NCBI RefSeq assembly: GCF_041381155.1
Contig: NC_091147.1
Span: forward strand, 36,856,553-36,920,552
Origin: Argopecten irradians
Taxonomy: Eukaryota; Mollusca; Bivalvia; Pectinida; Pectinidae
DNA: 64,000 nucleotides
Direction of reading: 5' to 3'
The position numbers were made by a program, and so were the translations under genes. Below, piece by piece: positions 5,255 to 56,011 of the stretch. The notes below the pieces were generated by a model that was given only the letters and a program-made list of their open reading frames with translations, was not told the origin of the DNA and made no database searches. The first letter of the stretch is position 1; every line of letters starts with the position of its first letter.

Positions 5255-8200
5255 ACAAGTGTAAAGTTAACAACAAGAAAGTATACACATGGACATAGAA
5301 GGACCTTACCGCTGGTTTAATTACGGAACTAATACTACACAACTACTAGCCTAATTATTTCCCCAACCCCACAGACAACAAAAAGTATACTCATGGACAT
5401 AGAAGGACCTTACCGCTGGTTTCAACTTACGGAACTAAATACTACACAACTACTAGCCTAATTTATAAAGGGACACAGATCCCCCAACCCCACAGACAAC
5501 AACAAAGTATACTCATGGACATAGAAGGACCTTACCGCTGGTTTCAACTTACGGAACTAAATACTACACAACTACTAGCCTAATTTATAAAGGGACACAG
5601 ATCACCCAACCCCACAGACAACAACAAAGTATACTCATGGACATAGAAGGACCTTACCGCTGGTTTCAGCTTACGGAACTATATACTACACAACTACTAG
5701 CCTAATTTATAAAGGGACACAGATCCCCCAACCCCACAGACAACAACAAAGTATATACATGGACATAGAAGGACCTTACCGCTGGTTTCAATTACGGAAC
5801 TATATACTACACAACTACTAGCCTAATTTATAAAAGGGACACAGATCCCCCCAACCCCACAGACAACAACAAAGTATACTCATGGACATAGAAGGACCTT
5901 ACCGCTGGTTTCAACTTACGGAACTAAATACTACACAACTATTAGCCTAATGTATAAAGGGACACAGATCCCCCAACCCCACAGACAACAACAAAGTATA
6001 CTCATGGACATAGAAGGACCTTACCGCTGGTTTCAACTTACGGAACTATATACTACACAACTATTAGCCTAATGTATAAAGGGACACAGATCCCCCAACC
6101 CCACAGACAACAACAAAGTATACTCATGGACATAGAAGGACCTTACCGCTGGTTTCAACTTACGGAACTATATACTACACAACTACTAGCCTAATGTATA
6201 AAGGGACACAGATCCCCCAACCCCACAGACAACAACAAAGTATACTCATGGACATAGAAGGACCTTACCGCTGGTTTCAACTTACGGAACTATATACTAC
6301 ACAACTATTAGCCTAATGTATAAAGGGACACAGATCCCCCAACCCCACAGACAACAACAAAGTATACTCATGGACATAGAAGGACCTTACCGCTGGTTTC
6401 AACTTACGGAACTATATACTACACAACTATTAGCCTAATGTATAAAGGGACACAGATCCCCCAACCCCACAGACAACAACAAAGTATACTCATGGACATA
6501 GAAGGACCTTACCGCTGGTTTCAACTTACGGAACTATATACTACACAACTATTAGCCTAATGTATAAAGGGACACAGATCCCCCAACCCCACAGACAACA
6601 ACAAAGTATACACATGGACATAGAAGGACCTTACCGCTGGTTTCAACTTACGGAACTATATATACTACACAACTATTAGCCTAATGTATAAAGGGACACA
6701 GATCCCCCAACCCCACAGACAACAACAAAGTATACACATGGACATAGAAGGACCTTACCGCTGGTTTCAACTTACGGAACTATATACTACACAACTATTA
6801 GCCTAATGTATAAAGGGACACAGATCCCCCAACCCCACAGACAACAACAAAGTATACACATGGACATAGAAGGACCTTACCGCTGGTTTCAACTTACGGA
6901 ACTATATACTACACAACTACTAGCCTAATGTATAAAGGGACACAGATCCCCCAACCCCACAGACAACAACAAAGTATACTCATGGACATAGAAGGACCTT
7001 ACCGCTGGTTTAAACTTACGGAACTATATACTACACAACTACTAGCCTAATTTATAAAGGGACACAGATCCCCCAACCCCACAGACAACAACAAAGTATA
7101 CTCATGGACATAGAAGGACCTTACCGCTGGTTTCAACTTACGGAACTATATACTACACAACTACTAGCCTAATGTATAAAGGGACACAGATCCCCAACCC
7201 CACAGACAACAAAAAAAGTATACTCATGGACATAGAAGGACCTTACCGCTGGTTTAAACTTACGGAACTATATACTACACAACTACTAGCCTAATGTATA
7301 AAGGGACACAAATCCCCCAACCCAACAGACAACAACAAAGTATACTCATTGACATAGAAGGACCTTACCGCTGGTTTAAACTTACGGAACTATATATTAC
7401 ACAACTACTAGCCTAATGTATAAGGGACACAAATCCCCCAACCCAACAGACAACAACAAAGTATACTCATTGACATAGAAGGACCCTACCGCTGGTTTCA
7501 CCTTACGGAACTATATACTACACAACTACTAGCCTAATTTATAAAGGGACACAGATCCCCCAACCCCACAGACAACAACAAAGTATACTCATGGACATAG
7601 AAGGACCTTACCGCTGGTTTAAACTTACGGAACTAAATACTACACAACTACTAGCCTAATTTATAAAGGGACACAGATCCCCCAACCCCACAGACAACAA
7701 CAAAGTATACTCATGGACATAGAAGGACCTTACCGCTGGTTTAAACTTACGGAACTATATACTACACAACTACTAGCCTAATTTATAAAGGGACACAGAT
7801 CCCCAACCCCACAGACAACAACAAAGTATACTCATGGACATAGAAGGACCTTACCGCTGGTTTCAACTTACGGAACTATATACTACACAACTACTAGCCT
7901 AATGTATAAAGGGACACAGATCCCCCAACCCCACAGACAACAATAAAGTATACTCATTGACATAAAAGGACCCTACCGCTGGTTTAAACTTACGGAACTA
8001 TATACTACACAACTACTAGCCTAATTTATAAAGGGACACAGATCCCCCAACCCCACAGACAACAACAAAGTATACTCATGGACATAGAAGGACCTTACCG
8101 CTGGTTTAAACTTACGGAACTATATACTACACAACTACTAGCCTAATGTATAAAGGGACACAGATCCCCAACCCCACAGACAACAACAAAGTATACTCAT

Positions 8201-8797
8201 GGACATAGAAGGACCTTACCGCTGGTTTAAACTTACGGAACTATATACTACACAACTACTAGCCTAATTTATAAAGAGACACAGATCCCCCAACCCCACA
8301 GACAACAACAAAGTATACTCATTGACATAGAAGGACCTTACCGCTGGTTTAAACTTACGGAACTAAATACTACACAGCTACTAGCCTAATTTATAAAGGG
8401 ACACAGATCCCCCAACCCCACAGACAACAACAAAGTATACTCATGGACATAGAAGGACCCTACCGCTGGTTTAAACTTACGGAACTATATACTACACAAC
8501 TACTAGCCTAATTTATAAAGGGACACAGATCCCCAACCCCACAGACAACAACAAAGTATACACATGGACATAGAAGGACCTTACCGCTGGTTTCAATCTA
8601 CGGAACTAAATACTACACAACTACTAGCCTAATGTATAAAGGGACACAGATCCCCAACCCCACAGACAACAACAAAGTATACTCATGGACATAGAAGGAC
8701 CTTACCGCTGGTTTCAGCTTACGGAACTATATACTACACAACTACTAGCCTAATTTATAAAGTGAACCAGATCCCCCAACCCCACAGACAACAGGAA
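5255..8797. repeat. 121-bp satellite array, about 29 copies
   Basis: The marker GGACATAGAAGGACC recurs from 5291 to about 8687, mostly at 121-bp spacing. The first units are shorter or irregular (104-123 bp), as expected at an array edge. Each unit includes TTACCGCTGGTTTCAACTTAC, TACTACACAACTACTAGCC and CCCCAACCCCACAGACAACA. Identity between central units is very high; variants such as CTAATGTATAA / CTAATTTATAA and CTCATGG / CACATGG occur in runs, a sign of local homogenisation. The right flank begins with GAAACCAGCGGTAA, the inverse of the TTACCGCTGGTTTC inside each unit. No frame is open through it. Confidence 0.97.
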
Positions 8798-10275: not shown

Positions 10276-11972
10276 ATGTCCGACACAACATCTGGCGACG
10301 AGGATACAAACGAAATCGTCGAGGAATCTGAACAGAACGGCGAAAATTTTGAGGAGACGGAAAGTGAAAGTGAAACTGTTGTGAACATGGCTCAAAGTCA
10401 AACTATAGACTTGAATGGTCTGTCAAAATTTGAAACACGCGGTGATCAAAGTCGTCTACACCAAATGTGGGAAAGATGGATGAGAGGTTTTATATTGCAG
10501 GAAATATTGCAGACGCGTTATCAAGACTAGTTGACACTAGAGATATCAGTCACAGTAAACTTGAAACAGAAACTGAGAACTATGTTCGTTTCGTGGGAAG
10601 GGAAGCAACTCCTACAGCATTGTCCACTAAAGAAGTTGAAGAGGCTTCCAAGTTAGATAATGAACTTTCGGCTGTCAGAAACTGTTTAAACGTGGGTAGA
10701 TGGGACAAGTCATGTACTCGATATTATCCAATCAGAGATGAGATCTGTCAACTGGGATACCTAGTACTGAGAGGGACACGGTTAGTAATACCACAAGCAT
10801 TACAGCTGAAGTGCTTTCGATTGGCTCATCAAGGACACTTGGGTAGTGTTGGAACAAAACAACAACTTAGAACTAAAGTATGCTGGCCCCACATGGACAA
10901 AGATGTTGAAAAATATGTTAAATCATGTCATGGATGTCAAATCGTAGAGGGTTCGACACGTCCAGAAGAAATCACACCAACTCCGTTACCAACAGGACCA
11001 TGGCAAGATGTGGCTATTGATTATATGGGACCACTCCCATCAGGACATTTCGTACTTCTTGTAGTCGATTACTACAGTCGCTATTTCGAGATTGAGATAA
11101 CGAAGGACACATCTACCGAGAAACTTGTAGACATTCTTGAGAATGTGTTTTCGTGACATGGCCTACCATGTTCAATCACATCAGACAATCGCCCACAATT
11201 CAAGTCGCTGAGGTGTAAACAGTATGTTAATGAGAATGGCATAGAACACAGACGTATTACACCATTACACCCTGCAGCAAACGGTTAGGTAGAGAGACAG
11301 AATAGGTCACTACTTAAACGTATAAAGAGCGCGCACGCAGAGTCTAAAGACTGGAAGAACGAGCTTCGTACATATATATTAGCCAATAGAAGTACACCTC
11401 ATAATGTAACTGGAGTCTCGCCAGCTGAACTAATGTTTGGACGGAAGCTCAGAGAACCAAACTACCCCAGATAAAGAAAATTGGAAGGAAAGTATTGGAC
11501 GAAAGTGTACGAGACAGGGACACAGAGATGAAATACCGAAATAAACTGTATGTAGACAGGAAACGTGGTGCTAGGGATTATACCTAGAAGTTGGAGAGTC
11601 TGTACTTGTCAAAGAAAAGCAAACCGACAAGTTTTCGACGCCATTTTGCCCTGCTCCATATACATTGGTTGAGAAAAACGGAAACGTGGTGCTAGGGATT
11701 ATATCCAATGATGGTGTGTGTTACAGGAGTAACAGTACATTTGTAAAACCATTTAACACACCGGATGTCGATGTAAAGCCAGCAGTTAGCCTGATGTGTA
11801 TACAAGGTCATCAGAGGTCAAAATGAAGGACAACGCATTGAAGGTCATGGAGAACGATCCAAACGACACGGGCGATGAACCACCACAGGATGATGTATCC
11901 GAGGTTACGGTTTCCAGGACAAGGAGAGAACATAAACTTCCCGTGAAGTTTAAAGACTTTGTTATGAAATAA
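10276..11972 (+). mobile_element. Ty3/gypsy retrotransposon remnant, deleted between gag and RNase H
   Basis: The first 70 or so codons (from 10276, acidic, then RLHQMWERWMRGF) resemble the start of a Ty3/gypsy gag. At about 10490-10500 the frame switches directly to GNIADALSRL, the usual end of RNase H, so most of gag and all of protease and RT are missing. Then come the integrase H-H-C-C zinc domain (HQGHLGS...CHGCQ, ~10826-10940) and the integrase core. The core's three acidic positions can be located (DYMG, TSDN, VERQ), but stops at 11154, 11286 and 11472 break the frame. The glycine usual after TSDN is Arg. A pol-like C-terminus (REHKLPVKFKDFVMK) ends at 11972. I found no convincing LTR pair on either side. 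The copy is dead. Confidence 0.85.
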
Positions 11973-15034: not shown

Positions 15035-18000
15035 ATGAAGATCTTCCTCCTTGCATGTCTCTTGGCTGGGGCCAACGCCAGTTTCTTGGACTCCCTGTCA
15101 GGGGCCATTTCCAGCGTCGGGGAAACTTTAACATCTGCAGCCTCTAGCACACTCAACACGCTCACCAGTGGTGACGTCGGAGCTATCGTCCAAAATGTCG
15201 TTTTGCCAGGTATTTGTTTGTTCCGTTGTTTGATTATTTTAACGTCCTTTTAACAGTTATGGTCATGTAAGGGCGGCCTCCCATGTATGCAGTGTGTAGC
15301 GTGTGTGATGTGCGAGGTGCGTGTTTTGGGAGATTGCGGTATGTTCGTGTTATGTCTTCTTGTATAGTGGAACTGTTGACCTTTTTATAGTGATTTATCA
15401 CTGAGTCATGCCGCCGAAGACACAAAGCAACACACCTCACCCAGTCACATTATACTGACAACGGGCGAGCCATAAATATGAATGCGTGGACAACTACAAG
15501 GCATTATGACGAGGTTAGATGTTTTATTAATCTTGATTTACGTATTATTAAATATCCAGGATCATGAAACAATCTTAGTCTTTTGACGTATATGTATCTA
15601 TTCATAAATGACATATCTTTTTGTAACGTCATCTATGATTGGCTAAGTCTAAAATTAAGACAGTTTTGGAGCCTGACACCATATCAACGAAATTCAAATT
15701 CAAATCATTCTTATTTAATAAGGCATGCATGTGCGTTATGAGTGTCTCCGTACTTGGATATTGCGTTTCATTCCAGCCATGCTTATTTGCTATACAAACT
15801 TGTTGTTAATTATGCCGACCACCTCAAACTCTGATCTTAAAAAGATACTAATAAAATAATAAAATTAAACTAATTTGTAAAGTTGATTTCTATTAGTTTC
15901 TCTATATGTTATTGATTGGTGAAATACATTTACAGCAAATACCATTCAGTAGTGCCCGTCTGCAATGCGGGATGTGTGTAATGAGCGATTAATTTGTTTT
16001 CCAAGTTAATTAAGAGGAAACTTCAGATGAAAATAAATCTTTAAATCTTACTATGCTAATGTGTTAGTAGAGTGCATGAATGGAGGACGTAACATAAAAA
16101 AGAAATACAAGCAATGACGCCATTGCATTGAGTATTATCAATCGACATGATCATGTAAAGCTAAACTTTTATTTCACAGTTGCTGAAAAGGTCGCTCTCG
16201 CCTCTTTATTGGGAAAACGTGAACAGTCGTAAGTTATTTATACTATTTATGAATATATCCGTCTCAATATCACAGGATCATGCCAGACAAATCTTCACCT
16301 CTACAAATCCTGATTTGGTAGCATTACAATTAATAGCTTCATCAATGTGTCCCCTTGTAAATGTTATGCGTAATAGGCCTAGAAAGTAAACTATTGCTTA
16401 CTGTATATTCGCAAAGTATTACCTTTGCTATGTTCACGGAGCATTACATTTCGCTATATTCGCGGATCATTACATTTTGCTATATTTGCGGGGTATAACA
16501 TTTAGCTATGTTCACAGGAGATTGCATTTTGCTATTCCGTATTTGCATATTACAGAGTTATCTGCCCTTGCGGGTAGATATCGATTGTGACTTTATGTGT
16601 TTACGAGCGAAACGTCATGATTTTATGAGAAAACGACGTGAATTGCGCTCAAAATAATGACAAATAATAACAAACGATCCCTACTCGCAAGAAAGTTAAC
16701 TGTATAACATGCAAGACGGAATATTCGCAGGGGATTATATTTTGTTATATGTGACGTAATGAAGTGACTTAAGCTTTAAAGACGGTGACTTCTCCCATCT
16801 TAAGCCTGTTGTACTCATGTGGCAATCGTAACATTACATACAGCCTTCTTTAAACCTCGTCTCATTCTTTTTTTCAAGTCTTGGCGAGACCACTAAATTG
16901 AAATTACAGTGGATATTGTCGGTATATTATGTCAGCTTCTTTTGAAACCTACCTATAAACTTATGTTTTGCAATCTAGACATGAGCCAACCGTCCAGGAA
17001 GTCTTAAGCCACGGCGCTCAAGCCGCTCAACACGTCCTTGGCCAGTATGCCTCAGAACTCCAACACTTCCATGAACAGATTGCCAGCCTGGACTTTCTGA
17101 AGGGAGATGTCGCTTCGTTTTTCCAGCAAATGCAACACTCAAAACGTAAGCTGATGTCAAACGTATTTATGCCATCTAAGAAATTCTCTATTTATGGATC
17201 ATCTAGGTACAAAGAATCGTGGAAATTATTTTTTATGTGTTTATTTTATTCGTGTGCTGTCGAATACAGAAACTATAAGCTATTTACACAGTCAGTCACC
17301 AGAACAAGAGAGAGCACTACAAAATTATATAACAAACACAGTAGGGCTACAATAACACATGACATGTTTAGTCGGCGAGTGGTGAATCTGTGGAACTCTC
17401 TTCCAAATTACGTAGTTGAAGCCCCAACTCTGAATGGTTTTTTAAACGTCGTTTAAATAAGAATAGAGCAAAACTCCTTTTAAATTTTACCAAAATTTGT
17501 ATACTGCGCAACCGGATAACAGTGAGTTATCGATACAAAAACGCACTAGACGTTAGATGACATCAGCTAACTATTGACGTCAAATAAGAGGTATGGATCA
17601 GGTATATCAGGTAACGGTTCATCACATTGCAATGGTGATGCAATTTAACGATTTAATGACGAAGAGTAGCATTCATTTGTACTGTAGTTCTTCCATATAC
17701 AGGTACAAAGTATATTTAGTTTCTTTGTTTTATACACGGATTCAAACAATTGCTTATCAATGAGACTAATACATGTTCCAGGTGATACACGATAACGTTG
17801 GTGTAGGACTACTATCTCCAGTGGTGACTGGACGTTGTAATCTTCCCTCTGCGCGGAACTTCATTCCGTCACCAATAGAAAAAAAACTGTCCCGCATAAA
17901 CTTGATCAGGTATCACGTGGTAAGAGAATTAGCTCGTCCATTCGCCATATAAAGAATTAAAACCAAAACATCCATGCTTAGAAAATTAATGAATACATTA

Positions 18001-19970
18001 CAGTTGTCCACAACACTGCCCTAGACAACATTGTTACCAGTGTAGAGAATGCGTTGACCCATCACCATAAGAGACAGGACAATGGACTCCTCTCTGGTCT
18101 GACTGGACTCTTTTCTTCTACTATTCAGGGACTAAAGGATGTGAGCATGCGCGTGATACCATAACTTTCATTTTGAGTTTGTAACTGTACCGTATTACTG
18201 TAAAGATGCTTATTTTCTCGGGGCTTTTAATTTCGCTAAATTTGTGGATCCATCAAAATTTGCTAAGTTAAAATCTCGCAAAATTTATCAAAATTATGGT
18301 TTTACATATTATAGTCTGTCATCTAAATGACGCTTTCAAAGTCTACTTAGATAATTCGTGAAAATAAACCCCCGCGAATAAAACTTCCAAACAGTAGATC
18401 GCGATAATATATATCCGCGAAATTATACAACTGTACAGTAATATCATGAAATATTTATGCCATTCAGATCAGATATTCCGTATTTGTATATATCAGTTAC
18501 TTCCCTTGCAACTAGGTATCGACTGTGACGTCATTATTTTGTGTGCGCAATTCACATAGTTTCTCTGAAATGTATGACGTTACCTTCGAAAATACATGAC
18601 GTCACGATAAAAACCTATACGCAAGGACAAGTAACTCTTTAAAATGTAAATACAGAATAACTTTATATGACGATATTTCTGTCATTCGGATCAGATATAA
18701 ATACAGTGATAATATTCTTGTCATTCCGATCAGATGTAACTTTTTTAAAAACTAACACAATAATCAATGAAAATAAAGAATTGAGATAGGAGAGAGAAAT
18801 TTAATCAAGTTCAAATTTTAAATTTGTCTAGGTTATCTCAAATACATATTGTAGGTCTATCTACGTGATTTAGTTCCATTGATGACGCTTGCCATTTCGC
18901 AAGTTTATAAGCAAAGCTGTCCAATAATTCATCTATGGTAAACCGGTCATACTAAAACACAATAACTTTACAATTGATTCCAACGCATTAAAACATCTAC
19001 TAGAATTTTACCTTGATTAATTTTTTACGAGAGAATTTTTTACTGTTTTTTTTCCAGCAATTTAACGGCGTCCACACCCAACTGTCCGGCGGATCTACTG
19101 ATATCCTTGGTGCTATTACTGGCCACATCGCACATCTGGGCGAGAGTCTGAGCCACATCAAGGATACCGGTGCAGCTCTACTGGCTAGTGGTCAGGAAAC
19201 TTTGGGCAATTTACAACAGACAGCCGGTACCCTGTTGCGTAAGTCGCTTCACATAGATCTCTATGTACTATTTTAAGTCAGATTGGCCTGGTTGTTTGGG
19301 CGGTTGATTATATGTAGTGTCCTCGATACCCCAGGGGTTACTTTCAATGCTGTTATATTCGTCCCTAAACTTATTCATAATGAAACAGTACAACTGACAA
19401 ATCCCAAGCCAATAATTTTAAATAACACCTTGTGTATGATACCATATGATTTTTATCAACTTGATTGTCCATATCAGAGCCTGGGATTAAATAATCAATA
19501 AATTGATTAATCAATTTTACACCAATTCCGCTTGATTTTGATAAATTGTTCTGAATCCTTTCGGAATCCATTAGATTAACCACAGCCTTTACTATAATAA
19601 CATTGATTTAGTAACCTCGAATGAAAGTGCTATTGATAATGTTCAAGTCCATGAGTTTAAAAATAGGAAACCAATATTTATCATATCATGGTCGTTACAA
19701 ATAACAAAGACAAAACCACTTACTCTGTTTTTCTTTCATGTCATTAATAGTAACAAATACTGTTGCACCTCATTGCTCCGGCCACCACTATTTACGGACC
19801 TCATACAGTCGCCGTTCTACCACTGTAGTTTTATTTGCGGATCGCCTTGATTAATCTTTAATTGTTCTGACGTTTCCTATTTGATTGCAGACCAAGCCAA
19901 TGCTGGGATACAAGGCCAGGCTGCCCAGGCTTTAGACACACTTCTCCATCCTGACCTCGGTTCCTCATAA
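15035..19970 (+). CDS. Gene A: secreted 262-aa precursor with two Lys-Arg sites
   Basis: Six coding exons join in frame: 15035-15209, 16180-16228, 16979-17145, 18004-18140, 19058-19238 and 19891-19970. The total is 789 nt, giving 262 aa plus stop; all introns are GT-AG, and AATAAA lies at 20022. The 49-nt second exon is required to keep the frame. The start follows an acceptor-like TTTTCAG, so a 5' non-coding exon is likely. Residues 1-15 (MKIFLLACLLAGANA) form a signal peptide. The rest has no cysteine and is rich in Ala, Leu, Ser, Gly and His in heptad-like, helix-forming stretches. GKR at 70-72 and KR at 153-154 (after HHH) are candidate convertase sites, dividing the protein into three parts; the last would begin with Gln, which could cyclise. 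I recognise no domain. Introns carry SINE, LINE and MITE insertions. The function is unknown; a lipid-binding or haemolymph/mantle secreted role is only speculation. Confidence 0.85.
15246..15480 (-). mobile_element. SINE-like repeat R1 in intron 1 of gene A
   Basis: On the minus strand it carries the R1 blocks in order: GTCAGTATAATGTGACTGGG, the ATAGTGGAACTGTT region, AACACGAACATACCGCAATC and CATGGGAGGCCGCCC. Sister copies are at 31405, 35945, 46395, 47870 and 53540. Confidence 0.75.
16533..16725. mobile_element. MITE family C in intron 2 of gene A
   Basis: The left end TTCCGTATTTGCATATTACA is followed by GAGTTATCTGCCCTTGCGGG. The right end contains CTCGCAAGAAAGTTAACTG and ATGCAAGACGGAAT, a diverged inverse of the left. 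Sister copies are at 18476, 26513 and 56346. Confidence 0.7.
17290..17500 (+). pseudogene. LINE 3' fragment in intron 3 of gene A
   Basis: The reading frame runs straight through the exon 3 donor into intron sequence and gives RVVNLWNSLPNYVVEAPTLN. This is the 'WN.LP..VV.APS.N.FK..L' signature that ends many non-LTR retrotransposon ORF2 proteins. A T-run slips the frame just after it, and the neighbouring frame continues as FFKRRLNK. It is intronic and dead, so the long open frame 16968-17456 is an exon plus read-through into this fragment, not a separate gene. Confidence 0.65.
18196..18440. mobile_element. MITE family B in intron 4 of gene A
   Basis: Bounded by TACTGTAAAGATGC and TGTACAGTA, with internal AATTTCGCTAAA, CTCGCAAAAT, CCGCGAATAAAA and CCGCGAAATT motifs. 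Confidence 0.75.
18476..18661. mobile_element. MITE family C in intron 4 of gene A
   Basis: The left end TTCCGTATTTGTATATATCA and the right end ATGTAAATACAGAATAAC are imperfect inverse repeats. The interior has CCCTTGCAACTAGGTA / TACGCAAGGACAAG and several TGACGTCA-like motifs. Three GTCATTC-GATCAGAT direct repeats flank it (18455, 18685 and 18720). Confidence 0.75.
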
Positions 19971-24556: not shown

Positions 24557-26854
24557 ATGATGAAATGGAGAGTTGTCTCCCTTTTACTACTAGTAATGTT
24601 GGTGAGTTGTAAGTTTGCTGCCTCCTCCTCCATACTTGATTACCTACAATCCCACCACGGATTGCCCAACTTTACTAAAGCTGAGCTCGAGCATTTGGAG
24701 GCTCAAATTGGCGGAGCTATAGCCGGTGAGTTCAATGAGCAGACAAGATGCTCTACTTCTATTTGGAAATTCTATGTTGTCAAATCATAAAAATTGCAAA
24801 TAAAATATGTTTAAATCAAGATGCTCCACCGCTGATAAATGGCAATTTTTTCTCTCTATCAAAAACAGGAGCAGACAAATATGTATTTTTCTTCAGTGAT
24901 AATTGTCCCGAATAAATTCCATGACACTATATCCTATATGGAATGGATCACTGAATCTGAATGCTTTAAAACCAAACTAAATGATATAAAATTATTAAGT
25001 GTGTTGATTCGACACATATATTCACAATTAAACATAAGTTATTTTTCAAATGATCGTTTATGCTCTGTCGGCGATGGAGCATCTTTAAGGAAATCAAGTG
25101 TAGATTAAGTCATTATAATATAAGCAAAAACGAGTTGAAAACATACCAGAGATAAAAATAGAAATGAGATTATATAAACAAAGTAAGTTTAGTGGTAGAT
25201 TATGTTAGCGCTTTCCTTGCTGTCATTGAAGCACGAATTCGTGAAAAGCGATATTTTTTGTAATATATATATATGGCATTTCTAAAATTGAAACACTTAA
25301 AAAGAGAAAATTAATCAGTTTATATTGATATATTAATTCACATACTGTAAACCAACGATCATTCGTGTGCAATTTAAATTCGACAATTTCGGGATCTACT
25401 AAAATCTGCAAAAGTTAATCTCGATATGACTTAGTATGATAGTATCAAATGAAAGTAGAACTATATGTTATATGTTCCGCGAAATTAATCTCCGCGAAAT
25501 TGTTTGAAACGGAATTTGCGAAATTTGATAGCCGTGAATAGAAGTTGGTTTACATTATTGTAAATATGATATCTGGTAAAAACAAATAAAATTATATTCC
25601 ACCTGAATACTGTTATTGATTGATAGGTCACATTCCTGATTCGTTAATTGAGTCGTTGGGCGGTGTCATTGGCAAACGGCATCAGGTACGTACTGAACAA
25701 TAAAGCTACCAGCTTGTATTCTATGGCTATGTATGTTTCACATTGGGAAATATAACTTCATAGCAGTTGGTTATCGTTTATGTTTACACAACCCATTGTA
25801 AAATACGGCGCTTTTTCTTTTTAATAGCATTGCATTTACTGCATAACAGGTAATTGCTTATTCCAAGTATAAAACAACAAAATATTGACTCTCTATTTAG
25901 GCAGCATATTGTGGTGTGTTGTGGTTATTCTCCCTGACTGCAGATGAGACATATAGCTAAAATTATGGGATAAACAAGTTCTCCAACACGTGCCTGTTAT
26001 TTATCATGTTAAGCTAAAGACTCTGTCTTTTTCAAATTTTGTAAACTCAACTCCACAACTCGAATTTGATAAACATGATAAAAAACAGACATATGTTGGG
26101 GAACCTCTATTTTAAGGACAAAAAGCACATTGTCTGTTATAACCAAGACATATACAATTATCAAATGCCAAGTGTCTCTGTTAAATCTTTTAAATCATTT
26201 ACATACATTGAATTATTTCTTAACATTTTTGTATCTTTCCTTCCTTAAATATTGTTTTCTGATGGATAGTTTTACCTACCACAATAGTCTTTGGTTTTAA
26301 ATCTTTGTGATACGCACAACGGTTTACACGACAGGATCAATGTTTAATCCCAATGCAAATCTAGTTTTCACTTTAAAGATACTAATTAATTTTGCCCCTA
26401 AACAACCTTCTCGGTGGACCGTGAAATTAGGACAAAGAAATACTGTTCTAAGTGGTAATTGTCTTGTCAACAGAACATTATAAAAATGAAAAAAATAGTC
26501 TATTTTATTACCACTTTTTGCATACTACAGATCCTCTGTGGGTAGATATAGATCGCGATGTCAGCATTTTGTGAGCGATTTCGTGTCGTATTTTTTCTGG
26601 AAAATATGACGTTACGCTCGAAAACACACTACGTCACACTCAGTACGTACCCAGAAGGGCAGATAACTATGTAATATGCAAATACATTATAACAACTTGA
26701 ATTCTTTTCAATACAGTGATTGATTATACTTATATGCGTTTTTCTGTATGCCAATTTCTTGTTGTTTCATTCTGAAGCGATATCTTTTTGTTTTCAGACG
26801 TTTCACGAAAACTCGAAGCACCACAACAAACTTCAACCGTTTGATAGCCAATAA
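24557..26854 (+). CDS. Gene B: secreted 94-aa peptide precursor with a Gly-Lys-Arg site
   Basis: Three coding exons (24557-24725, 25627-25685, 26798-26854) join in frame: 285 nt, 94 aa plus stop. Introns are GT-AG (donors GTGAGT and GTACGT), and AATAAA follows at 26881. A second ATG directly follows the first, so the protein may start one residue later. Residues 1 to about 22 (MMKWRVVSLLLLVMLVSCKF...) form a signal peptide. NFT at 38-40 is a possible glycosylation site. GKR at 72-74 is a convertase site whose Gly could serve C-terminal amidation. Cleavage would leave a segment of about 49 residues ending VI(G) and a 20-residue His/Asn-rich tail. The mature part has no cysteine. The SILDYL start, phase-1 first exon and short GKR exon match gene A, so I infer paralogy. 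No known family is recognised. MITE copies sit in both introns. Confidence 0.8.
24818..25088. mobile_element. MITE family A, most complete copy, in intron of gene B
   Basis: The left end AAGATGCTCCACCGCTGATA and the right end TGTCGGCGATGGAGCATCTT are inverse repeats (about 20 bp, few mismatches). Length is about 270 bp. The interior matches the copies at 592 and 4865. Frames inside are not genes. Confidence 0.8.
25343..25556. mobile_element. MITE family B in intron of gene B
   Basis: TACTGTAAACCAACGATC at the left and AGAAGTTGGTTTACATTA at the right are inverse repeats. Internal TTCCGCGAAATT, CTCCGCGAAATT and TTTGCGAAATTT motifs are typical of the family. Confidence 0.75.
26513..26690. mobile_element. 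MITE family C in second intron of gene B
   Basis: The left end is TTGCATACTACAGATCCTCT; the right end GGGCAGATAACTATGTAATA is followed by TGCAAATACA. Interior GTGAGCGATTTCGTG, ATATGACGTTACGCTCG and ACGTCAC match the other copies. Confidence 0.7.
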
Positions 26855-29794: not shown

Positions 29795-30797
29795 TAACAC
29801 GAACATACCACAGTCTCCCAACACATACAGATATCCACACATACAACACGAACATACCACAGCCTCCCAACACATACAGATATCCACACATACAGCACGA
29901 ACATACCACAGCCTCCTAACACATACAGATATTCATATATACAACACGAACATACCACAGCCTCCCAACACATACAGATATTCATACATACAACACGAAC
30001 ATACCACAACCTCCCAAAACATACAGATATTTACACATACAACACAAACATACCGCAACCTCCCAAAACATACATATATTTACACATACAACACGAACAT
30101 ACCACAGCCTCCCAACACATACAGATATCCACACATACAATACCACAGCCTCCCAACACATACATATATCCACATATACAATACGAACATACCACAGCCT
30201 CCCAACACATACAGATATTCATATATACAACACGAACATACCACAACGTCCCAACACATACAGATATTCATACATACAACGCGAACTATCACAGCCTCCC
30301 AACGCATACAGATATCCACACATACTACAAGAACATACCACAACCTCCAAACACATACAGATATTCATATATACAACACGAACATACCACAACCTCCCAA
30401 CACATACAGCTATTCACACATACAACACGAACATACCACCAGCCTCCCAACAAATGCAGATATTCACACATACAACACGATCATACCACAGCCTCCCAAC
30501 ACATACAGATATCCACACATACAACACGAACATACCACAGCCTCCCAACACATACATATATCCACATATACAATACGAACATACCACAGCCTTCCAACAC
30601 ATACAGATATTCATATATACAACACGAACATACCACAACGTCCCAACACATACAGATATTCATACATACAACACGAACTATCACAGCCTCCCAACACATA
30701 CAGATATTCACACATACTACAAGAACATACCACAACCTCCAAACACATACAGATATTCATACATACAACGCGAACTATTACAGCCTCACTAAGCCAC
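29795..30797. repeat. 49-bp minisatellite, about 20 copies, derived from repeat R1
   Basis: Units of about 49 bp are built from CACGAACATACCACAGCCTC, CCAACACATACAGATA and TCCACACATACAA. The same string occurs once, in the same order, in the R1 repeats (for example CACGAATATACCGCAGCC... at 31546). Forty-nine is not a multiple of 3, so frames rotate. The 406-codon plus frame and several minus frames (His/Thr/Pro/Tyr- and Cys/Val/Trp-rich) are by-products of stop-free repeats. Confidence 0.93.
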
Positions 30798-38835: not shown

Positions 38836-41800
38836 GTGTCTGATTTCATGAATAATACATGTATATCGGAATTGTCACATATCGTGTCTGATTTCGTGAA
38901 TACCACACTCAGAAAGGAACTCTTGCTATCTTGTCTGATTTCGTGAATACCACACTCAGATAGGAACTCTTACTATCGTGTCTGATTTCGTGAATACCAC
39001 ACTCAGATCGGCACTCTTACTATCGTGTCTGATTTCGTGAATACCACACTCAGATAGGAACTCTTACTATCGTGTCTGATTTCGTGAATACCACACTCAG
39101 ATAGGAACTCTTACTATCGTGTCTGATTTCGTGAATACCACACTCAGATAGGAACTCTTACTATCGTGTCTGATCGTGAATACCACACTCAGATAGGAAC
39201 TCTTACTATCGTGTCTGATTTCGTGAATACCACACTCAGATAGGAACTCTTACTATCGTGTCTGATTTCGTGAATACCACACTCAGATAGGATCTCTTAC
39301 TATCGTGTCTGATTTCGTGAATACCACACTCAGATAGGAACTCTTACTATCGTGTCTGATTTCGTGAATACCACACTCAGATAGGATCTCTTACTATCGT
39401 GTCTGATTTCGTGAATACCACACTCAGATAGGATCTCTTACTATCGTGTCTGATTTCGTGAATACCACACTCAGATAGGATCTCTTACTATCGTGTCTGA
39501 TTTCGTGAATACCACACTCAGATAGGAACTCTTACTATCGTGTCTGATTTCGTGAATACCACACTCAGATAGGATCTCTTACATCGTGTCTGATTCGTGA
39601 ATACCACACTCAGATAGGAACTCTTACTATCGTGTCTGATTTCGTGAATACCACACTCAGATAGGATCTCTTACCATCGTGTCTGATTTCGTGAATACCA
39701 CACTCAGATAGGAACTCTTACTATCGTGTCTGATTTCGTGAATACCACACTCAGATAGGATCTCTTACATCGTGTCTGATTTCGTGAATACCACACTCAG
39801 ATAGGACTCTTACTATCGTGTCTGATTTCGTGAATACCACACTCAGATAGGATCTCTTACTATCGTGTCTGATTTCGTGAATACCACACTCAGATAGGAT
39901 CTCTTACTATCGTGTTGATTTCGTGAATACCACACTCAGATAGGATCTCTTACTATCGTGTCTGTTCGTGATACCACACTCAGATAGGATCTCTTACTAT
40001 CGTGTCTGATTTCGTGAATACCACACTCAGATAGGATCTCTTACTATCGTGTCTGATTTCGTGAATACCACACTCAGATAGGATCTCTTACTATCGTGTC
40101 TGATTTCGTGAATACCACACTCAGATAGGATCTCTTACTATCGTGTCTGATTTCGTGAATACCACACTCAGATAGGATCTCTTACTATCGTGTCTGATTT
40201 CGTGAATACCACACTCAGATAGGATCTCTTACTATCGTGTCTGATTTCGTGAATACCACACTCAGATAGGATCTCTTACTATCGTGTCTGATTTCGTGAA
40301 TACCACACTCAGATAGGAACTCTTACTATCGTGTCTGATTTCGTGAATACCACACTCAGATAGGATCTCTTACTATCGTGTCTGATTTCGTGAATACCAC
40401 ACTCAGATAGGAACTCTTACTATCGTGTCTGATTTCGTGAATACCACACTCAGATAGGATCTCTTACTATCGTGTCTGAATTCGTGAATACCACACTCAG
40501 ATAGGAACTCTTACTATCGTGTCTGATTTCGTGAATACCACACTCAGATAGGATCTCTTACCATCGTGTCTGATTTCGTGAATACCACACTCAGATAGGA
40601 ACTCTTACTATCGTGTCTGATTTCGTGAATACCACACTCAGATAGGATCTCTTACCATCGTGTCTGATTTCGTGAATACCACACTCAGATAGGATCTCTT
40701 ACTATCGTGTCTGATTTCGTGAATACCACACTCAGATAGGATCTCTTACTATCGTGTCTGATTTCGTGAATACCACACTCAGATAGGATCTCTTACTATC
40801 GTGTCTCCAGATTTCGTGAATACCACACTCAGATAGGATCTCTTACTATCGTGTCTGATTTCGTGAATACCACACTCAGATAGGATCTCTTACTATCGTG
40901 TCTGATTTCGTGAATACCACACTCAGATAGGAACTCTTACTATCGTGTCTGATTTCGTGAATACCACACTCAGATAGGATCTCTTACTATCGTGTCTGAT
41001 TTCGTGAATACCACACTCAGATAGGAACTCTTACTATTATGTCTGATTTCGTGAATACCACACTCAGATAGGATCTCTTACTATCGTGTCTGATTTCGTG
41101 AATACCACACTCAGATAGGAACTCTTACTATCGTGTCTGATTTCGTGAATACCACACTCAGATAGGAACTCTTACTATCTTGTCTGATTTCGTGAATACC
41201 ACACTCAGATAGGAACTCTTACTATCGTGTCTGATTTCGTGAATACCACACTCAGATAGGATCTGTTGATTTCGTGAATACACACTCAGATAGGATCTCT
41301 TACTATCGTGTCTGATTTCGTGAATACCACACTCAGATAGGACCTTACATCGTGTCTGTTTCGTGAATACCACACTCAGATAGGATCTCTTACTATCGTG
41401 TCTGATTTCGTGAATACCACACTCAGATAGGAACTCTTACTATCGTGTCTGATTTCGTGATACCACACTCAGATAGGATCTCTTACTATCGGTCTGATTC
41501 GTAATACCACACTCAGATAGGACTCTTACTATCGTATCTGATTTCGTGAATTCACACTCAGATAGGATCTCTTACTATCGTGTCTGATTTCGTGAATACC
41601 ACACTCAGATAGGATCTCTTACTATCGTGTCTGATTTCGTGAATACCACACTCAGATAGGATCTCTTACTATCGTGTCTGATTTCGTGAATACCACACTC
41701 AGATAGGATCTCTTACTATCGTGTCTGATTTCGTGAATACCACACTCAGATAGGATCTCTTACTATCGATCTGATTTCGTGAATACACCTCAGATAGGTC

Positions 41801-42200
41801 TCTTACTATCGTGTCTGATTTCGTGAATACACACTCAGATAGGATCTCTTACTATCGTGTCTGATTTCGTGAATACTAATTGTTTTCACACTCAGATAGG
41901 ATCTCTTACTATCGTGTCTGATTTCGTGAATACCACACTCAGATAGGATCTCTTACTATCGTGTCTGATTTCGTGAATACCACACTCAGATAGGATCTCT
42001 TACTATCGTGTCTGATTTCGTGAATACCACACTCAGATAGGATCTCTTACTATCGTGTCTGATTTCGTGAATACCACACTCAGATAGGACTCTTATATCG
42101 TGTCTGATTTCGTGAATCCACACTCAGATAGGATCTCTTACTATCGTCTGATTCGTAATCCACCTAGATAGATCTCTACTATCGTCTGTTCGTGAATACC
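38836..42200. repeat. 47-bp minisatellite, about 70 copies
   Basis: The 47-bp unit contains CGTGTCTGATTTCGTGAATA, CCACACTCAGATAGG and a variable AACTC/ATCTC before TTACTAT. Early units are the A type and later ones mostly the T type. Between about 40310 and 40640 they alternate strictly, giving a 94-bp dimer. Near 39170, 39590, 39900-39975 and 41260-42190 many units carry single-base losses. It is not a CRISPR array: units abut without unique spacers. Confidence 0.97.
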
Positions 42201-42204
42201 ATAT

Positions 42205-42282: not shown

Positions 42283-42593
42283 ATAGTCGAAATTCCTACA
42301 TGTATAGGTGGAAAAAGAAAGTGCCACTTTTATATGGTTTATGAAATACCCTACACATTACAACATTGTTTCCAGCGTACATGTATACTGTATCGCCCTC
42401 TGCCTTATGTATATATCTCCCCTAAAAACTATTACCAGATCTTTGGAAAAATTCGGTTTCTACGTTGTTTACGGAAAACAGCATTAACCATCTCTCTATA
42501 AAAAATTTCTAAATGGGCTAATTGTTTTCAAGCGTTCAAGGTTATTTGCAGGCTAAAAATGTAGCATTGGTAAACTTACATGTGTATGAATAT
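42283..42593. other. Unique island between minisatellite blocks
   Basis: About 310 bp of AT-rich, non-repeated sequence without a gene. It separates two blocks of the same 21-bp repeat, as an insertion or a local rearrangement would. Confidence 0.6.
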
Positions 42594-45356
42594 ATCTGTG
42601 TCCCTCTTTGATATATCTGTGTCCCTCTTGGATATATCTGTGTCCCTCTTGGATATATCTGTTCCCTCTTGGATATATCTGTGTCCCTCTTGAATATATC
42701 TGTGTCCCTCTTGGCTATATCTGTGTCCCTCTTGGATATATCTGTGTCCCTCTTGGATATATCTGTTCCCTCTTGGCTATATATGTGTTCCTCTTGGATA
42801 TATCTGTATCCCTCTTGGATATATCGGTGTCCCTCTTGGATATATCTGTGTCCCTCTTGGATATATCTGTTCCCTCTTGGATATATCTGTATCCCTCTTG
42901 GATATATCTGTGTCCCTCTTGGATATATCTGTGTCCCTCTTGGATATATCTGTGTCCCTCTTGGATATATCTGTGTCCCTCTTGGATATATCTGTGTCCC
43001 TCTTGGATATATCTGTGTCCCTCTTGGATATATCTGTGTCCCTCTTGGATATATCTGTTCCCTCTTGGATATATCTGTATCCCTCTTGGATATATCTGTG
43101 TCCCTCTTGGATATATCTGTTCCCTCTTGGATATATCTGTGTCCCTCTTGGATATATCTGTGTCCCTCTTGGATATATCTGTGTCCCTCTTGGATATATC
43201 TGTGTCCCTCTTGGATATATCTGTGTCCCTCTTGGATATATCTGTGTCCCTCTTGGATATATCTGTGTCCCTCTTGGATATATCTGTGTCCCTCTTGGAT
43301 ATATCTGTGTCCCTCTTGGATATATCTGTGTCCCTCTTGGATATATCTGTGTCCCTCTTGGATATATCTGTGTCCCTCTTGGATATATCTGTGTCCCTCT
43401 TGGATATATCTGTTCCCTCTTGGATATATCTGTATCCCTCTTGGATATATCTGTGTCCCTCTTGGATATATCTGTTCCCTCTTGGATATATCTGTGTCCC
43501 TCTTGAATATATCTGTGTCCCTCTTGGCTATATCTGTGTCCCTCTTGGATATATCTGTGTCCCTCTTGGATATATCTGTGTTCCTCTTGGCTATATCTGT
43601 GTCCCTCTTGGATATATCTGTGTCCCTCTTGGATATATCTGTTCCCTCTTGGATATATCTGTATCCCTCTTGGATTTATCTGTGTCCCTCTTGGATATAT
43701 CTGTTCCCTCTTGGATATATCTGTGTCCCTCTTGAATATATCTGTGTCCCTCTTGGCTATATCTGTGTCCCTCTTGGATATATCTGTGTCCCTCTTGGAT
43801 ATATCTGTGTCCCTCTTGGCTATATATGTGTTCCTCTTGGATATATCTGTGTCCCTCTTGGATATATCTGTGTCCCTCTTGGATATATCTGTGTCCCTCT
43901 TGGATATATCTGTGTCCCTCTTGGATATATCTGTGTCCCTCTTGGATATATCTGTGTCCCTCTTGGATATATCTGTGTCCCTCTTGAATATATCTGTGTC
44001 CCTCTTGGCTATATCTGTGTCCCTCTTGGATATATCTGTGTTCCTCTTGGCTATATCTGTGTCCCTCTTGGATATATCTGTGTCCCTCTTGGATATATCT
44101 GTGTCCCTCTTGGATATATCTGTGTCCCTCTTGGATATATCTGTGTCCCTCTTGGATATATCTGTGTCCCTCTTGCTGATATATCTGTGTCCCTCTTGGC
44201 TATATCTGTGTCCTCTTGGCTATATCTGTGTTCCTCTTGGCTATATCTGTGTCCTCTTGGTATATCTGTGTCCCTCTTGGCTATATCTGTATCCCTCTTG
44301 GATATATCTGTTCCCTCTTGGATATATCTGTGTCCCTCTTGGATATATCGGTGTCCCTCTTGGATATATCTGTGTTCCTCTTGGCTATATCTGTGTCCCT
44401 CTTGGATATATCTGTATCCCTCTTGGATATATCTGTGTCCCTCTTGGATATATCTGTTCCCTCTTGGATATATCTGTGTCCCTCTTGAATATATCTGTGT
44501 CCCTCTTGGCTATATCTGTGTCCCTCTTGGATATATCTGTGTCCCTCTTGAATATATCTGTGTCCCTCTTGGATATATCTGTGTCCCTCTTGGATATATC
44601 TGTGTCCCTCTTGGCTATATCTGTGTCCCTCTTGGATATATCTGTGTCCCTCTTGGCTATATCTGTGTCCCTCTTGGATATATCTGTGTCCCTCTTGGAT
44701 ATATCTGTGTCCCTCTTGGCTATATATGTGTTCCTCTTGGATATATCTGTATCCCTCTTGGATATATCGGTGTCCCTCTTGGATATATCTGTGTCCCTCT
44801 TGGATATATCTGTTCCCTCTTGGATATATCTGTATTCCTCTTGGATATATCTGTGTCCCTCTTGGATATATCTGTTCCCTCTTGGATATATCTGTGTCCC
44901 TCTTGGATATATCTGTGTCCCTCTTGGCTATATCTGTGTCCCTCTTGTCCCTCTTGGATATATCTGTGTCCCTCTTGGATATATCTGTGTCCCTCTTGGA
45001 TATATCTGTGTCCCTCTTGGATATATCTGTGTCCCTCTTGGCTATATCTGTGTTCCTCTTGGCTATATCTGTGTCCCTCTTGGATATATCTGTGTCCCTC
45101 TTGGATATATCTGTGTCCCTCTTGGATATATCTGTGTCCCTCTTGAATATATCTGTGTCCCTCTTGGCTATATCTGTGTCCCTCTTGGATATATCTGTGT
45201 CCCTCTTGGCTATATCTGTGTCCCTCTTGGATATATCTGTGTCCCTCTTGGCTATATCTGTGTCCCTCTTGGCTATATCTGTGTTCCTCTTGGATATATC
45301 TGTGTCCCTCTTGGATATATCTGTGTCCCTCTTGGCTATATCTGTGTCCCTCTTCA
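42594..45356. repeat. 21-bp minisatellite, about 130 copies
   Basis: The unit is GATATATCTGTGTCCCTCTTG. Variants have GAATATATC, GGCTATATC, GTTCCTC, GTATCCCTC or a 19-bp form lacking GT (CTGTTCCCTC). The same ordered runs of variants recur (for example 43050, 43415, 43650 and 44455), so a higher-order repeat exists. Since 21 is 3 x 7 and no frame of the unit holds a stop, all plus frames and one minus frame stay open. The 825-, 580-, 375- and 358-codon frames are therefore seven-residue echoes (LDISVSL, GYICVPL, WIYLCPS, KRDTDIS), not genes. Confidence 0.97.
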
Positions 45357-55207: not shown

Positions 55208-55354
55208 AGTTTTTTTTTTGCTGATATTAGACCTTTGTGCGTTCAGGTTTTATTTCCATGATGAAACACTGGGTAAATGTACTAAACCCATTTGTTCAAA
55301 CTAGTATTGATTAATGCAGCTGTCTAACAATGATTGTTTTTCTATGTTGCAGAA

Positions 55355-55927
55355 ATGATACGATCCCTAACACTAGTTGTTCTCCTTGTTGGGACTTGTC
55401 TTGCCTTCCCGCCATTCAGTAGAGGCTCCTACACGCTCAAAGTGAGCGGAGAACGTAACGGATATGACAATGCTGCTGCGCAAAATACAGAAAACGCTGA
55501 CGCACTTAGTCTTGGTGATGTTATGCTGCAAACCATTGGCGCCAACCAAGGAACGAACGTTGTGGTCAGTGACAGGTATGAATATACAACAAACCCTTCT
55601 GATGTAGATTGGGATCTGTTCAGGGGCGGACTACTTTCACAGCCGTCAGGATTACTACAACAGTGTATGTCGCTCTCTTCCACCGGTATGCATCAGCTGC
55701 TATACTGTATCAAGCTTCTATCGGATAAGGATCAACTACAGCAGACGAGCATTCAAACAAAACGAGGACCGCTTAAACTCAACCCAACGGGATGGAAACG
55801 CAAAAAGAGGAGTACAAACGATCAAGTTCAAAGAGAATTGGAAAACATCAGGATCCAATCAATGTTAAATCAGTTGCTACAAAAAAGACAAAATGCCAAT
55901 CCTCGTTTTAACCCTACTGGCTGGTAG
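55355..55927 (+). CDS. Gene C: neuropeptide-type precursor with two NPTGW peptides (190 aa)
   Basis: A single coding exon starts 2 bases after a strong acceptor (TTTTTCTATGTTGCAG, AG at 55351-55352), so a 5' non-coding exon is expected; AATAAA is at 56006. The in-frame extension before the Met is intron read-through. Residues 1 to about 17 (MIRSLTLVVLLVGTCLA) are a signal peptide. An acidic, Asn/Asp-rich spacer follows, then two cysteines 14 residues apart (104 and 118), which could form one disulphide. Two peptides are cut out by basic sites: GPLKLNPTGW (138-147), between KR 136-137 and KRKKR 148-152, and QNANPRFNPTGW (179-190), between KR 177-178 and the stop codon. Both lack a Gly donor, so they would end in a free Trp; the second may start as pyroglutamate. 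This is classic prohormone layout. I cannot match NPTGW to a named molluscan neuropeptide family. Confidence 0.9.
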   Translation: MIRSLTLVVLLVGTCLAFPPFSRGSYTLKVSGERNGYDNAAAQNTENADALSLGDVMLQTIGANQGTNVVVSDRYEYTTNPSDVDWDLFRGGLLSQPSGLLQQCMSLSSTGMHQLLYCIKLLSDKDQLQQTSIQTKRGPLKLNPTGWKRKKRSTNDQVQRELENIRIQSMLNQLLQKRQNANPRFNPTGW

Positions 55928-56011
55928 TCAGACTTAAGCGGAACGGAATCCTCTGTGAATTCGTCATCTCTTTGCATTCTCTCTTTTTTCTCTGTTTCTG
56001 TTTTCAATAAA

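Follow-up and report, generated by a model that had tools for sequence, protein, structure and literature searches.

Most short molluscan neuropeptides are amidated. In the AKH/RPCH/GnRH superfamily, a single peptide lies directly behind the signal peptide and carries a tail such as FSPGW-amide or FSTGW-amide. This position has been described for scallop GnRH (PMC5996578; this and the other surveys are cited here from part of their text). The Wamide/MIP family (allatostatin B) comprises multiple amidated peptides with a C-terminal Trp (PMC7270403), and luqin/RYamide precursors release peptides ending in RF-, RY- or RW-amide and possess a Cys pair in their C-terminal portion, the exact place of which is not given (PMC5576490). 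Conchiferan PXRX precursors are characterised by four conserved Cys together with P[FM]R[WY], the latter being missing from two Dreissena members, and GNXQN/prohormone-2 precursors display a GN[QHR]QN motif towards the N-terminus (PMC6425005). For bivalves, a scallop survey has proposed 13 new families, GWamide among them (PMC5996578), and the scallop GW precursor is reported to retain just the GW motif of oyster GWE (PMC8398477).

In this paper we describe a bivalve gene whose best explanation, in which we have fairly high confidence, is a secretory prohormone releasing two neuropeptides by cleavage at basic sites. It is a well-formed candidate neuropeptide gene with an apparently unnamed motif, and the most probable reading is that of a prohormone yielding two non-amidated neuropeptides that belong to an unnamed family. 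The chances lean slightly towards its being the first representative of a bivalve neuropeptide family that is so far unnamed, in which a non-amidated, receptor-active [K/R][L/F]NPTGW end occurs twice per precursor, apart from all amidated Trp families that we tested.

Coding anatomy and gene setting

The window, i.e. the whole stretch of 64,000 nucleotides that was analysed, contains an open reading frame (ORF) of 190 residues that runs from ATG to TAG at exactly 55355-55927 on the forward strand, where a sequence-only reading had placed a coding feature. The prohormone architecture claimed by that reading is present in the translation, which begins with a signal-peptide-like start and continues with a spacer, a Cys segment and bounded peptides (Table 1).

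Table 1. Features of the candidate prohormone gene, with positions in the window
Feature	Position	Strand	Basis
3' splice acceptor-like site, a pyrimidine-rich tract with a terminal CAG, two bases 5' of the ATG	55338..55352	+	sequence
Signal peptide MIRSLTLVVLLVGTCLA, predicted cleavage A17/F18	55355..55405	+	hydropathy and -3/-1 rule
Spacer, residues 18-135, first part mildly acidic, Cys segment within	55406..55759	+	
Cys104-x13-Cys118 segment (CMSLSSTGMHQLLYC)	55664..55708	+	
KR cleavage site (predicted), residues 136-137	55760..55765	+	
Peptide 1, GPLKLNPTGW, predicted free acid	55766..55795	+	no Gly before KRKKR
KRKKR cleavage site (predicted), residues 148-152	55796..55810	+	
Linker peptide STNDQVQRELENIRIQSMLNQLLQ, predicted helical	55811..55882	+	single-sequence structure model
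KR cleavage site (predicted), residues 177-178	55883..55888	+	
Peptide 2, QNANPRFNPTGW, free C-terminal Trp at the stop	55889..55924	+	
TAG stop	55925..55927	+	
AATAAA polyadenylation-type signal, about 80 bases 3' of the stop	56006..56011	+	sequence

The signal peptide was predicted from Kyte-Doolittle hydropathy and from the -3/-1 rule for signal cleavage, on which the A17/F18 call is based. Residues 4-16 have a mean hydropathy of 2.42, against 1.12 in the best later window of 13 residues, and the peak at the start (2.82) compares with 3.45 and 2.54 in the GnRH and APGWamide precursors of the same genome. The spacer had been called acidic, which holds in a mild form and not as strong acidity, as residues 18-103 include ten D/E and five K/R. 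Cysteines occupy positions 15 (within the signal peptide), 104 and 118, with 13 residues between the latter pair; the helical moment of residues 95-120 was attained by 304 of 20,000 shuffles.

Basic runs of at least two residues are confined to KR, KRKKR and KR, and all three border the two peptides, which are located at residues 138-147 and 179-190 with NPTGW at 143-147 and 186-190. Two dibasic-bounded peptides with a common C-terminus, as previously suggested, are thus set off by these runs and the stop. None of the basic runs is preceded by an amidation Gly (T, W and Q occupy that position) and the final W stands directly before the stop; neither peptide carries an amidation signal, in agreement with the earlier proposal of a free C-terminal Trp. 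To our knowledge, a free-Trp ending is unusual among short molluscan neuropeptides, and this predicted absence of amidation, together with a copy number of just two, speaks against the neuropeptide reading.

A signal peptide and KRKKR are by themselves no proof of neuronal use, and the window contains another secreted-protein gene; the product might instead be a secreted non-neuropeptide, such as a host-defence peptide or an adhesive or shell-matrix precursor, cut by furin-type enzymes. We regard this as unlikely, since two short linear products that have a common end, lack Cys and carry little net charge would be unusual in such a role.

A single-sequence structure model leaves the precursor mostly unstructured (mean pLDDT 42.5), which would be expected of a prohormone and equally of any orphan protein. 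With low confidence, the same model predicts a helix at residues 154-181, with ten-residue pLDDT means of 60-75 over residues 151-180 and values below 50 over residues 1-152. This predicted helix spans the internal KR and would suit an active product consisting of one 38-residue helical peptide, STNDQVQRELENIRIQSMLNQLLQKRQNANPRFNPTGW, acting like helical hormones of the CRF, ELH or PTH type, in which the internal KR stays uncut and NPTGW forms the tail. Such a product is very unlikely, however, because no Pfam family was matched at E up to 1, the helical moment of residues 153-176 is not above that of shuffles (18,022 of 20,000 attained it), the peptide would be devoid of a C-terminal amide, and this reading would leave unexplained why a decapeptide with the same end has boundaries of its own.

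Under the preferred reading, a prohormone for two short peptides, the signal peptide would direct the precursor into the regulated secretory pathway, prohormone convertases would act on the three basic runs (KR, KRKKR, KR), whose residues would then be removed by a carboxypeptidase. The products would be GPLKLNPTGW and (pyro)QNANPRFNPTGW, the N-terminal Gln of the latter, which could stand as pyroglutamate, being probably cyclised. The common [K/R][L/F]NPTGW end with its free carboxyl would be the part read by a receptor, most likely a G-protein-coupled one on target neurons or muscle. We infer these steps, as well as neuronal expression, from the sequence.

The acceptor-like site just 5' of the ATG points to an upstream first exon that is untranslated, and the simplest gene model would comprise this exon and a single second one harbouring the entire coding region. 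A matching layout of acceptor followed by ATG is found in this genome's GnRH gene (tttattttgtag, then AAAGA-ATG). GC content is 45% in the ORF, compared with 31% and 35% in the flanking 1-kb stretches. An Rfam scan of the window gave nothing at gathering scores, and a scan for bacterial-type promoters and terminators, which is not meaningful for animal DNA, gave 9 and 1 vs 8.3 and 1.0 in shuffles.

Several other features were recorded in the window. Exons at 15035-15209, 18004-18140, 19058-19238 and 19891-19970 (+) join in frame to encode a secreted protein, likewise of 190 residues; the frames with its first and third exons have no Pfam match above the cut-off, and an exon-like ORF at 16980-17145 is out of phase with its exons. 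At 24557-24787 (+), an ORF with a signal-peptide-like start (MMKWRVVSLLLLVMLVSC...) and no Pfam match probably represents exon 1 of a further gene for a secreted protein. An integrase zinc-binding domain (PF17921, E 4.2e-16) at 10446-11153 (+) probably marks a retrotransposon remnant. Large tandem arrays extend over 5361-8793, 29796-30787, 38880-42201 and 42590-45354, with units of 122, 49, 47 and 21 bp, respectively, and several frames of the 21-bp array are open, with stop-to-stop ORFs of up to 844 aa.

Length of the reading frame and divergence of the NPTGW copies

All chance and silent-change tests, whether of length, motif or codons, are post hoc, as they followed the recognition of the motif. 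In second-order Markov sequence, modelled on the non-repeat DNA of the window with the 190-aa ORF itself included, ATG ORFs with 190 aa or more numbered 24 per 180 Mb, i.e. about 0.007 per 52 kb, and 3 Mb of first-order simulated sequence contained none. Among the ATG ORFs of the non-repeat DNA the candidate ranks second in length; the longest, of 226 aa, has the length expected for the integrase frame. Although chance ORFs of such length do arise, at about the above rate per window, a chance ORF or a decaying gene is an extremely unlikely explanation, since the length is here combined with a signal peptide, a splice acceptor, a poly(A) signal, a rise in GC and a repeated bounded motif.

The occurrence of the NPTGW end at both cleavage sites exceeds chance. 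In tests made after the motif had been seen, a common end of at least five residues at cleavage sites appeared in 0 of 200,000 free shuffles and, with the basic runs kept in place, in 16 of 2,680,085. Elsewhere in the window NPTG, PTGW and N[PA][TS]G[WYF] are absent from all six frames.

At the DNA level, each of the three fourfold-degenerate sites of NPTGW differs between the two copies, without any amino-acid change. Three random changes over 15 sites would hit precisely the fourfold positions in 1 of 455 cases (4 of 455 if the third codon position of Asn is also counted as silent), odds that were likewise calculated after the fact. Because no direct DNA repeat of at least 12 bases links the two peptide regions, a fresh duplication is unlikely, and in combination with the silent-only divergence this agrees better with selection on the peptide than with recent duplication.

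Searches for relatives and other neuropeptide genes of the genome

DNA and protein searches of the assembly to which the window belongs (845,758,899 bases; protein E up to 10) returned one match each, namely this locus on contig C14, and a codon pattern that spells NPTGW, then lysine, then AGN or CGN has a single occurrence in the genome, although these searches score only the best candidates and a very distant paralogue could escape them. The 190-aa protein has no relative in Pfam at E up to 1, in NCBIfam, or in the PDB at E up to 10, where one chance match was obtained (acetyl-CoA acetyltransferase, E 0.98). Viral and prokaryote contigs yielded 10 and 66 stretches with the pattern, none of which was confirmed as a relative.

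Text searches of 5.39 million open-access papers found NPTGW solely in two, as part of an unrelated CD44 fragment and of an equally unrelated bacterial Rhs consensus (PMC6542040, PMC7170923, from part of their text). NPTG in combination with neuropeptide and precursor produced nothing relevant, one case, from a paper on RF-amides, lying inside rat kisspeptin-52 (PMC4183120, in the portion consulted); PLKLN, NANPRF and GPLKLNP gave no relevant match, as judged by the listing, and variants of the motif together with neuropeptide gave no match. NPTGW is absent from the open-access text, supplementary lists aside, of the scallop (PMC5996578) and oyster (PMC8398477) surveys, which counts against the neuropeptide reading and suggests that the gene was overlooked, bears a different name in the supplements, or is lineage-specific. 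Nor is the motif described in the accessible parts of surveys of molluscs (PMC6425005), of nemerteans, brachiopods and phoronids (PMC8557429) and of annelids (PMC3890597), or in those of PMC7270403, PMC10730642, PMC5576490, PMC4772807 and PMC4200219.

The candidate could be orthologous to a molluscan precursor that has been listed already, e.g. to scallop GWamide or to a member of the remaining 13 new scallop families; the family would then be known by another name, which would be compatible with the prohormone mechanism. The scallop survey names GWamide without a sequence in the main-text portions consulted (PMC5996578), the scallop GW precursor and oyster GWE have only the GW motif in common (PMC8398477, in part), and the present genome is scallop-like in its APGWamide and GnRH precursors. 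The name GWamide, however, implies amidation, of which the candidate has no signal; the described oyster GWE traits, N-terminal G/AWE-starting peptides and a C-terminal Cys-rich peptide, are missing from it (PMC8398477); and the open-access searches with NPTGW, NPTG, PLKLN and NANPRF gave nothing relevant. We therefore consider such an orthology possible but doubtful. The earlier proposal of an undescribed family accords with the lack of a match in Pfam, PDB, NCBIfam, open-access text and six named families, yet falls short of demonstration.

The same genome harbours known genes of this kind. Its APGWamide precursor (locus L004, 1330-1977; contig C11, 19256768 onward) encodes six RPGW-GKR and three APGW-GKR in one reading frame. 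In Patinopecten yessoensis, six RPGWamide, two APGWamide and one SPGWamide have been found, and such variation among the tetrapeptides is given as a trait of bivalves (PMC5996578, in part). A GnRH precursor exon (locus L007, about 1429-1620; contig C5, 35479061) encodes QNFHYSNGWQP-GKR, and the peptide is the same as in P. yessoensis (PMC5996578). A query with the scallop NKY peptide, GKR appended, matched one locus (79% over 38 residues), which makes P. yessoensis itself an improbable source of the genome. The APGWamide and GnRH precursors place the genome among bivalves, perhaps close to scallops. We count the presence of these loci in favour of the neuropeptide reading, as they indicate a lineage with known genes of such kind.

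Comparison with described precursors

Like members of the AKH/RPCH/GnRH superfamily, the candidate encodes short peptides that carry G-W terminally or close to the terminus, with a possible pyroglutamate on peptide 2; unlike them, it has two copies at the opposite end of the precursor from the signal peptide, and no amidation Gly. We rejected membership on layout and amidation; GnRH is a separate gene here, with the superfamily layout. With APGWamide/RPGWamide it shares a molluscan origin, the GW ending and basic sites on either side, but it is without PGW-G-KR: the xPGW-G-KR repeats and PGWG are absent, and a separate nine-copy precursor is present in the same genome. Unlike Wamide/MIP precursors, with their multiple amidated peptides, the candidate has no amidation Gly. 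Short peptides and a Cys pair recall luqin, from which the candidate differs in having no RF/RY/RW-amide (R[FYW]G[KR] is absent from the sequence); its Cys pair, Cys104 and Cys118 of 190, lies ahead of both peptides, and the luqin definition gives no exact place for the pair. PXRX is likewise excluded, with P[FM]R[WY] absent and two Cys, not four, beyond the signal peptide, and so is GNXQN/prohormone-2, GN[QHR]QN being absent. A G-W motif, a bivalve origin and a secreted precursor are shared with scallop GWamide and oyster GWE, the latter differing in its reported G/AWE-starting peptides and C-terminal Cys-rich peptide (PMC8398477).

If true, a new peptide family would provide one more ligand for the orphan receptors of molluscs, and the prediction, two peptides of known mass, is precise and cheaply testable; the calculated MH+ values are 1082.599 for GPLKLNPTGW and, for peptide 2, 1384.639 with pyroglutamate and 1401.666 unmodified. 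Such families are common, with 13 in the scallop survey alone (PMC5996578, in part), so that the find, though useful, is hardly startling. Compared with neuropeptide and peptide-hormone precursors in general, the candidate stands apart in its two copies only, its free C-terminal Trp and a motif that text search located in no neuropeptide paper. It resembles them in an N-terminal signal peptide, as judged by hydropathy and the cleavage rule, in short peptides delimited by basic cleavage sites, and in the repetition of related peptides with one C-terminal motif.
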